Source: Myxococcales bacterium
GTDB lineage: Bacteria > Myxococcota_A > Polyangia > Polyangiales > Polyangiaceae
Length of the DNA: 64,000 nt
Assembly (NCBI GenBank): GCA_012514535.1
Contig: JAAZAA010000016.1
Span: 1-64,000, forward strand
Reading direction: 5' to 3'
Both the position numbers and the translations under genes were made by a program. Position 1 is the first letter of the stretch; each line of letters begins with the position of its first letter. A model generated the notes under the pieces. The model was given only the letters and a program-made list of their open reading frames with translations. It did not search any database and was not told where the DNA came from. Shown here piece after piece: positions 14,597 to 64,000 of this stretch.

Positions 14597-15247
14597 TCAG
14601 CGGTCGGCGGCGCCGGCGTCGAGGTGACGTGCGAGGAAGCTCCGGATGCTCCCCAGGGCAGCCCGATCCAGGGTCTCCTGGGTGATCCCCTGCGCGGCCA
14701 GGTGCGTCTTGGTCGCGATGAGCGAGTGATCCCCCGTCGGCACGACGTGCAGCTCGTGGGGAGCTCGCATGCGCGCGCTCGTCCGTTCGAGCTCCTCGAG
14801 GGGGCACAGGGGGTCGCGGGTCCCCTGCACGAACAGGATCGGGGTCGTGAGCTCGAGGAGCACCCGATCGCGCAGGGGAGGCGGAGGTCGTCCTTGCGCC
14901 TGCGCGCGTCGTGCGCTGGGCGAGACGAGTGGATAGCCGAGGCACACGATCGCTCCCACCGATCGTTCCAGAGCCAGGTGACAGCCCACCCGACCTCCCA
15001 GGCTCTTGCCGACGAGGACCGGTGCACCCCTTCTGCTCGTTCGAGCTTCTTCGAGGGCGCGCGCGTGCGCCTCGAGCAGACGGGGTAAGGGGTCGGGGCG
15101 GCGCCGACCGGCTTGCACGTAGGGGTAGTCGAAGACCACCACCTCACCCAAGGTCTCGAGGTACCCGCGCCAGCGGACCATCCAGGCGGAGTCGGAGCCC
15201 GCGCCCGCGCCGTGGGCCAGCAGAAACCAAGGGGCGATCGACGTCAC
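14597..15247 (-). CDS. Alpha/beta-hydrolase, KANL3/Tex30-like
   Basis: A 216-residue soluble alpha/beta hydrolase. The oxyanion strand AHGAGAGSDSAWM, the nucleophile elbow GKSLGGRVG (Gly-x-Ser-x-Gly), the acid loop LFVQGTRDPLC and the catalytic His in TGDHSL are all present and correctly spaced. The GAGAGSDS start and KSLGGR elbow are typical of the KANL3/Tex30 (dienelactone-hydrolase-related) group. The substrate is unknown. ATG 15247 follows directly after the long gap that holds the poly-G hairpins, so those lie in its upstream region on the opposite strand. Confidence 0.85.
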   Translation of the reverse strand: MTSIAPWFLLAHGAGAGSDSAWMVRWRGYLETLGEVVVFDYPYVQAGRRRPDPLPRLLEAHARALEEARTSRRGAPVLVGKSLGGRVGCHLALERSVGAIVCLGYPLVSPSARRAQAQGRPPPPLRDRVLLELTTPILFVQGTRDPLCPLEELERTSARMRAPHELHVVPTGDHSLIATKTHLAAQGITQETLDRAALGSIRSFLARHLDAGAADR

Positions 15248-15299
15248 CGGGTCAGCCTACCGCGACCGCCGGGTGCGTCGCGACGGCACACAAAAGGTG

Positions 15300-15394
15300 G
15301 GCCGCCGGCCTCGGCGGAGGGGGGGGGAGACGCCGAGGCCAGGCCCGTAGGGGGGCGGCCGCCCTGGCGGAGGGGGGGGGGAACGCCAGGGTGC
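15300..15394. other. Twin hairpins with matching poly-G loops
   Basis: Hairpin 1 pairs 15307-15316 with 15331-15340 (10 perfect base pairs), with an outer 7-bp stem 15300-15306 to 15354-15360. Hairpin 2 pairs 15362-15369 with 15384-15391 (8 perfect pairs, plus a wobble). The stems have different sequences, but both loops are 14 bases, begin GA, hold a run of 9 or 10 G, and end in a purine trinucleotide. Read from the minus strand the loops are C-rich. The pattern suggests an RNA element or a slippage-prone control site; the coding strand is not known. Confidence 0.6.
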
Positions 15395-15404
15395 TGCCCG
15401 CGCG

Positions 15405-15443
15405 GCAATTAATTGCAATCTCCGTGCCTGGGGTCAGGTCAAT
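15405..15443. repeat. Palindrome plus GGGGTCAGGTC motif, possible mobile-element remnant
   Basis: A perfect 12-base palindrome (GCAATTAATTGC, 15405-15416) overlaps a second one (ATTGCAAT, 15412-15419) and is followed by CTCCGTGCCTGGGGTCAGGTC. From memory this arrangement resembles sequence next to REP-associated or IS200-like transposases, but no transposase frame is present. It could be an end left behind, or simply a regulator site. Confidence 0.3.
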
Positions 15444-15745
15444 GATTTCAGTGGCTTGGCGTGGTGTGGGGGTGGTGTGTTTCGAGGTTGCAATTTTCGA
15501 TTGCGCAAACGCGATGCCGAGCGCGCGGGGTGGAAGGTTTTTGTCCCGTGCGTCCCTGGGGAGCGCGAGTGGGGCGCGCTCCGGCCCGGCGCTGCGCTCG
15601 ACGCAGAGGTCGGGGAGAAAAGATCGTGGACGCTCACGCGAGGAGAGACATGACTCAGTGAGATCAGCGCGCCGGACGGGGTCCGCGGTGACGGCTCCCT
15701 CGCTTGGTCTCGGCGCGTGCTTGCAGCAAGATAGGCGAACCTTCC

Positions 15746-63236: not shown

Positions 63237-64000
63237 ATGACGAAGGGCCGCATCCTGGTGGTCGATGACGAGGCGAGCGCGCGCAACGCGCTCGCGGAGA
63301 TCCTCTCCGACGAGGGGTACTCCGTCTTGGCCGCACCGGACGGGTTCAAGGCGCTGGCCTTGGCGGGAGAACACGCTCCGGAGATCGTGCTCACGGACGT
63401 CAAGATGCCCGGTATGGACGGGCTCAGGTTGTTGGAGGAGCTGCGCGAGCGCTTCCCCGAGACCGCCGTGGTGCTGATGACCGCCTTCGGCGCCGTGGAG
63501 ACCGCGGTGCGGGCGATGCGCCAGGGGGCGTCGGACTACCTGGTGAAGCCCCTGAACAGCGACGAGCTGCTGGTGGTGATCGAGCGGTCCCTGGAGCAGG
63601 TGCGCCTGCGCCAGGAGGCCGCCCGCTTGCGACAGCAGGTGAGCGAGCGTTATCGCTTCGAGAACATCGTCGGCTCGTCGCCGGGGATGCAGCAGCTCTT
63701 CAAGAGCGTCGCGCAGATCGCCCCGAGCAAGGCCACCGTGCTCATCACGGGGGAGTCCGGGACGGGGAAGGAGCTCATCGCGGCGGCCATCCACCAGCGC
63801 TCGGGGCGCGCGGACAAGCCGTTCATCAAGCTCCACTGCGCAGCGCTGGCGGAGAGCCTGCTGGAGAGCGAGCTGTTCGGGCACGAGCGCGGGGCCTTCA
63901 CGGGCGCCGAGCGCCGCCGCATCGGGCGTTTCGAGCAGGCGGACGGCGGCACGCTCTTCCTCGACGAGATCGGGGAGATCAGCCCCGCGACGCAGGTGAA
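63237..64000 (+). CDS. Sigma-54-dependent response regulator, NtrC family (C-terminus outside window)
   Basis: The first 254 residues of an NtrC-type regulator. The receiver (1-120) has [12 protein letters not shown], phosphoacceptor Asp in [12 protein letters not shown] and the Lys in [13 protein letters not shown] linker helix leads to the AAA+ domain: [15 protein letters not shown], Walker [14 protein letters not shown] and the GAFTGA loop that contacts sigma-54 (in [15 protein letters not shown]), then Walker [10 protein letters not shown]. The DNA-binding end is cut off. ATG 63237 has GGGAG upstream. It probably acts on a sigma-54 promoter such as the one before its operon (auto-control), but the partner kinase is outside the window. 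Confidence 0.95.

Follow-up and report, generated by a model that had tools for sequence, protein, structure and literature searches.

Read on the minus strand, the pair of G-loop hairpins at 15300–15394 of the window (the whole 64-kb stretch of DNA analysed) very probably belongs to a stand-alone, Pxr-like sRNA of a multi-copy family, which would be controlled by sigma54 and a PxrR-type activator and act in trans via its C-rich loops. This reading is built on the hairpins, the promoter motif, the T-run, the family with its rebuilt stems, the dyad and the activator ortholog, each of which is visible in the sequence itself.

The initial annotation had described two hairpins with stems of 10 and 8 bp and 14-base poly-G loops, and both are present as described. 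Hairpin 1 pairs 15307–15316 with 15331–15340 (10 bp) around the loop GAGGGGGGGGGAGA (15317–15330), and hairpin 2 pairs 15362–15369 with 15384–15391 (8 bp) around the loop GAGGGGGGGGGGAA (15370–15383); as this is a draft genome, the homopolymer lengths may be off by one. The accompanying statement that the stems share no sequence is not correct, since both have four identical loop-proximal pairs (GGCG/CGCC), and an extra outer helix of hairpin 1, GGGCC/GGCCC, had been missed. The unit repeated in the two hairpins is GGCG-GA(G9-10)-purines-CGCC, with the difference confined to the outer stem. The two loops are the only sites of G9 or longer in the window; a dinucleotide shuffle of the window yields three G9 matches, so the number of G-runs is in itself unremarkable. 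Folding of the hairpin region gave z = -3.4 on either strand, with none of 200 shuffles equally good, and we take the existence of a hairpin family in related genomes as the decisive argument against a chance origin of the pair.

The predicted sRNA, about 115 nt long with two C-loop hairpins, occupies 15289–15403 of the minus strand, as judged from its fold and from a match to covariance model R1 (described below). A sigma54 −24/−12 promoter motif, AGGCAC-GGAGA-TTGCA (15414–15429, minus strand), aligns with the family promoters TGGCNC-N5-TTGCW, and transcription is predicted to start near 15403. The 5′ hairpin, CCCTGGCG-TTCCCCCCCCCCTC-CGCCAGGG (15362–15391, minus strand), has the loop TTC10TC. 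The 3′ hairpin, GGGCC..GGCCTCGGCG-TCTCCCCCCCCCTC-CGCCGAGGCC..GGCCC (15299–15346, minus strand), has the loop TCTC9TC and doubles as the stem of a predicted intrinsic terminator, whose T-run side, ACCTTTTG, lies at 15291–15298 of the minus strand, with the T-run itself at 15295–15292; relatives have T4 to T8 at the equivalent place. In the window copy, the terminator directly follows the C-loop hairpin and its T-run is short. Upstream on the same strand are the AAG box CCAAGCCACTGAAATC (15444–15459), a conserved element 28–29 nt upstream of the −24, and the dyad TTGCAACCTCGAAA (15480–15493), which lies 64 nt upstream of the −24 and matches 9 of the 10 fixed positions of the consensus TTKCANNNNTGMAA. 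Ordinary intrinsic terminators likewise have a GC-rich stem followed by a T-run, but in the window element a dedicated sigma54 promoter precedes the first hairpin by less than 40 nt, the C-run loop and the upstream dyad are conserved, and the element is not at a gene end. Compared with the commonest form of the family, the window copy has a −24 that starts with AGG instead of TGG, a T-run of only 4, one mismatch in the dyad and two C-loop hairpins instead of one. Because the C-loop is present in both of its hairpins, the window RNA looks intermediate between Pxr, in which the terminator is separate from the C-loop hairpin, and the common family form, in which the terminator itself contains the C-loop.

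The suggestion that C-rich loops on the other strand resemble those of sRNAs was thus the right lead, as it is the minus strand that carries the promoter, the terminator and the enhancer sites alike. The plus strand has the long G-runs, and the C-run length varies among members, which would be in line with a protein site, a G-quadruplex or a length-variable switch acting on the divergent gene at 15704. We find such a role on the plus strand, which had in part been put forward at first, hardly credible: in the family, the C strand has the promoter, the terminator and the enhancer sites, the members adjoin unrelated genes, and no conserved plus-strand signal was found among them. The related proposal, that slippage of the G-runs switches a flanking gene, is poorly supported because the neighbour gene is not conserved beside the element; the C-run length does differ among family members (about 6 to 11), but within the RNA loop.

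Beyond the window, the same genome contains a second copy. There are nine GAGGGGGGGGG sites in the 5.77-Mb genome, and three of them are within a GGCG..CGCC hairpin, namely the two window hairpins and one on contig C217 (12819–12839), which is the only other G-run hairpin of this kind in the genome. On its C strand, the C217 copy reads TGGCCC-ACCGA-TTGCT, followed by a C9-loop hairpin and then by T8. It is flanked by an unrelated membrane-type gene and an L,D-transpeptidase-like gene, both named only from reading their translations.

In the window, the predicted sRNA gene sits between a minus-strand alpha/beta hydrolase gene (14597–15247; Pfam PF20408, E 5e-37), whose start at 15247 is about 42 nt past the predicted RNA end, and the divergent gene at 15704. 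The element could act in cis on the hydrolase gene, as its 5′ leader or attenuator, since both are on the same strand with the T-run ending this close to the start codon, and the C217 copy likewise ends about 100 nt ahead of a gene. This is unlikely, however, given that R1 has no match alongside the orthologs of the hydrolase gene in 11 other genomes, that the C217 copy precedes an unrelated gene, that tandem copies are common, and that strong members carry their own terminator. The hydrolase gene is judged to lie outside the sRNA system.

A pattern search for a sigma54 promoter, C6 and TTTT over 184 genomes of the order recovered this architecture in about a dozen related species, besides chance hits, compared with 1 of 184 genomes for the reversed control. 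The pattern GGCG..C8..CCGCC by itself gave mostly chance matches in GC-rich genomes. Covariance model R1, trained on 16 family members with the window left out, matched the window at 15344–15459 of the minus strand at 39.6 bits, the E-value being 9.3e-10 for the window and 8.4e-8 for the genome. A covariance-model search of relatives had been proposed in the initial annotation, and similar hairpins were indeed found: 97 of the 108 genomes of the taxonomic family had a match at E<=0.05, in many cases below 1e-7, and genomes of 11 to 15 Mb had as many as 15 matches each. When 379 genomes of the phylum were searched, matches below about 1e-6 were restricted to this taxonomic family and a small number of further families in its order, with one genome outside the order (G461) having a match near that level (1.9e-6); genomes of the same genus had weak matches only (3.2e-4 and 0.018). 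The genome sizes, which reach 16 Mb, and the presence of PxrR orthologs (see below) suggest that the group belongs to Myxococcota, probably to Polyangiales. Weak matches across the phylum (E above 1e-5) were excluded from the claimed membership. Two loci from another family (L065 in G181 and L066 in G038) have a sigma54-like site, a perfect CCCCCCCGTGGAGC..GCTCCACGGGGGG hairpin and a T-run, and are not members because the C-run is in the stem instead of the loop. No published report of this C-loop sRNA family was found in a search of literature outside subscription journals, and the large family is apparently undescribed so far.

Copies of the family are often in tandem about 300 nt apart, and others are dispersed. 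At L158, L152, L154, L161, L163 and L164, sRNA copies neighbour each other with spacings between a few hundred bases and about 2 kb, comparable to the tandem pxr paralogs of Cystobacter. One copy each (L206, L207 and L208) is found about 21 kb into the chromosome record of G170, G171 and G172, and the nearly equal coordinates suggest an orthologous position in these three complete genomes of one genus. With as many as 15 matches in a genome, both dispersed and tandem, the element might be a small mobile element or a repeat scattered over the genome, with no regulatory function for its promoter-like and hairpin parts. We regard this as very unlikely, as a decaying or copying repeat is expected to keep or lose all its parts together, whereas here the stems are fully rebuilt with pairing preserved, and the loop, the −24/−12, the box and the dyad spacing are preserved separately; in addition, the dyad is common to pxr, which is itself no repeat.

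The stems are wholly different between groups, e.g. GAGCGCCTGCTC/GAGTAGGCGCTC, CAGCGGCAGCC/GGCTGCCGCTG and GGCGCCGCGTTG/..CGCGGCGCC, and the loop retains 6 to 11 C. RNAalifold found no consensus hairpin in the family sequence alignment, since the different stem classes are not in register there. In the same alignment, a column-wise count gave 65.5% of cells as paired, with slid controls overlapping on some measures; as the alignment is out of structural register, such counts are uninformative, and an arm-swap test was therefore used instead. Among 21 hairpins with dissimilar left arms, pairing with the own partner gave −32.0 kcal/mol on average and pairing with others' partners −17.7 kcal/mol, and for 16 of the 21 no swapped arm was as good as the own partner. 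The initial view that a changed stem with a kept loop indicates a functional RNA is thus strongly supported by sequence comparison: across 21 dissimilar stems, a hairpin's own arms pair and the C-loop persists.

The control sites upstream of the promoter are conserved as well. In 17 of 20 members, the box AA[GC]N4-6GA precedes the −24 by 28–29 nt (shuffles had it in 0.9 on average and in 4 at most), and the dyad TTKCANNNNTGMAA, at 9 or 10 of its 10 fixed positions, is found in 18 of the 20 (0.24 expected from shuffles), the shuffles being single-letter shuffles in both cases. Neither site was used in the first pattern search, and the dyad falls outside model R1. The dyad consensus was derived from the first members and M. 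xanthus; therefore, the independent tests are only the 32 further members found with R1, 21 of which have the dyad (0.2 expected), and the other pxr loci. Upstream of the pxr promoter, the dyad occurs in two to three copies at 11 of 11 loci from Myxococcus, Pyxidicoccus and Hyalangium, and at pxr loci a CAAGTGCTTGAG-like box also precedes the −24 by about 41 nt. Of nine sigma54-like chance sites outside the family, none had the AAG box or the dyad. Among members, the distance of the dyad from the −24 is mostly 55–58 or 64–68 nt, about one helical turn apart, which is the expectation for an activator that needs to face the polymerase. The dyad, including that of the window, is presumed to be the binding site of a PxrR-type sigma54 activator.

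A clear PxrR ortholog was found in every one of 15 related genomes, among them the window's own, where it is encoded at G000:C107:23653-24987 (471 bits, compared with 387 for the next match). The orthologs and M. xanthus PxrR form one clade (support 100/98), separate from 15 paralogs, and the members of this clade have in common the recognition helix TTLWRKMKRL or TTLWRKMTRL, which the paralogs lack where that end aligned. The own-genome ortholog agrees with M. xanthus PxrR in its domains (receiver, sigma54-interaction and Fis-type helix-turn-helix); PxrK was not found adjoining the own-genome ortholog. Directly downstream of 5 of the 15 orthologs there is a dyad with a sigma54 promoter, and a sixth has the dyad alone; in M. 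xanthus, the dyad and sigma54 promoter downstream of pxrR precede pxr. This arrangement supports, but does not prove, binding of the dyad by PxrR. No strong R1 match was found beside any of the 15 orthologs. At L136, L137, L138, L140, L141 and L143, in several large genomes, a stand-alone receiver-domain gene follows the pxrR ortholog in the place that pxr has in Myxococcus, with the dyad and usually a sigma54 promoter in front of it. The window itself ends in another sigma54 response-regulator activator gene (63237–64000, continuing on contig C437 to 64610), a PxrR paralog with 46% identity that groups with the other paralogs, apart from PxrR.

From these features, we infer how the window sRNA most likely works. 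The phosphorylated PxrR-type protein (the ortholog at G000:C107:23653-24987) would bind the dyad at 15480–15493 and open the sigma54 polymerase, which would then transcribe the RNA of about 115 nt from the promoter at 15429–15414. The transcript would terminate at the intrinsic terminator near 15291 and expose two stretches of 9–10 C, flanked by UCC, in its hairpin loops, and these C-loops would pair in trans with G-rich ribosome-binding regions of mRNAs. Any developmental role would likewise be putative. In the own genome, GGAGGGGG-N4-10-ATG occurs at 56 sites, compared with 24 for the reversed pattern, which shows that ribosome-site-like G-runs exist but is not proof that they are targets. 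Anti-Shine-Dalgarno sRNAs with C-rich loops are familiar from other bacteria, e.g. Staphylococcus RsaE and the rhizobial ar-type RNAs, which resemble the window RNA in their intrinsic terminator and in exposing loops, C-rich or CUCC, that are complementary to ribosome-binding sites. No sequence or promoter relation of the window RNA to these sRNAs was found, and a hint of Rfam ar7 was due to chance (11.6 bits against a cut-off of 60). To our knowledge, RsaE and the ar-type sRNAs have no sigma54/PxrR-type promoter.

The closest known system is Pxr, which blocks fruiting-body development of M. xanthus while nutrients are abundant; pxr has a predicted sigma54 promoter and is preceded by pxrR (nla19), which encodes an NtrC-like regulator, and the activity of Pxr depends on its SL1 loop (PMC5684412, PMC5568312). 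The origin of Pxr has been described as recent, within Cystobacterineae, and its direct targets as unknown (PMC5568312, PMC11928866). Pxr (RF01812) and the C-loop family are both intergenic RNAs, of about 110 nt, with a terminator hairpin at the end and a C-rich loop in the first hairpin, the latter found in the window RNA too. The first hairpin of pxr carries GGTTCCCCCCCACC, with seven C before ACC, and its loop, GGUUCCCCCCCACC, is almost the same as that of family member L047, GGTTCCCCCCCCACC. The sigma54 −24/−12 promoter of pxr, TGGCACGGCGACTGCT, has its counterpart in the window (AGGCAC-N5-TTGCA), a likeness in motif only and not in expression. The dyad and the AAG box are likewise upstream in the C-loop family, the PxrR ortholog is present, and tandem paralogs are known in both.

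In contrast, Pxr has three stem-loops, of which SL2 and SL3 form a conserved core, whereas the window RNA has two hairpins and no SL2, and most family members have a single hairpin that serves as both C-loop and terminator. In addition, pxr is directly downstream of pxrR, which the family members are not (the own PxrR ortholog is on contig C107), the C-loop family often has many copies per genome, and the box and dyads are farther from the −24 in pxr. RF01812, with a gathering score of 80 bits, gave M. xanthus pxr 129 bits but had no match on the window or on the family members tested, and R1 had no match in the M. xanthus genome. Across the phylum, four weak RF01812 matches lie over plain terminators or coding sequence and look like chance. 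Membership of the window RNA in Rfam Pxr is ruled out by the silence of RF01812, the missing SL2 and the position away from pxrR.

The RNA part is rebuilt while the control sites and the C-loop stay, and we therefore lean, with some reserve, towards seeing Pxr as one branch of a more ancient system rather than as a recent invention. A PxrR-type activator, the TTKCANNNNTGMAA enhancer, sigma54 and a C-loop sRNA would then make up an old circuit common to most of the taxonomic family and Myxococcus, in which the RNA was rebuilt and multiplied (up to about 15 copies) with the control sites and the C-loop kept. If this is true, the presence of Pxr control sites in a family outside Cystobacterineae moves the origin of the circuit back, and the dyad would be the probable binding site for PxrR. 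The family would also offer dozens of natural variants from which the pairing rule could be read, and an example of an sRNA that swaps all its stems yet retains its loop and its switch.

Finally, a scan of the genome collection recovered pxr loci from Myxococcus, Pyxidicoccus and Hyalangium. The pxr locus in a further record, titled Comamonas sp. KCTC 72670 (L102), is nearly the same as the Myxococcus one, suggesting that this record is mislabelled or contaminated.
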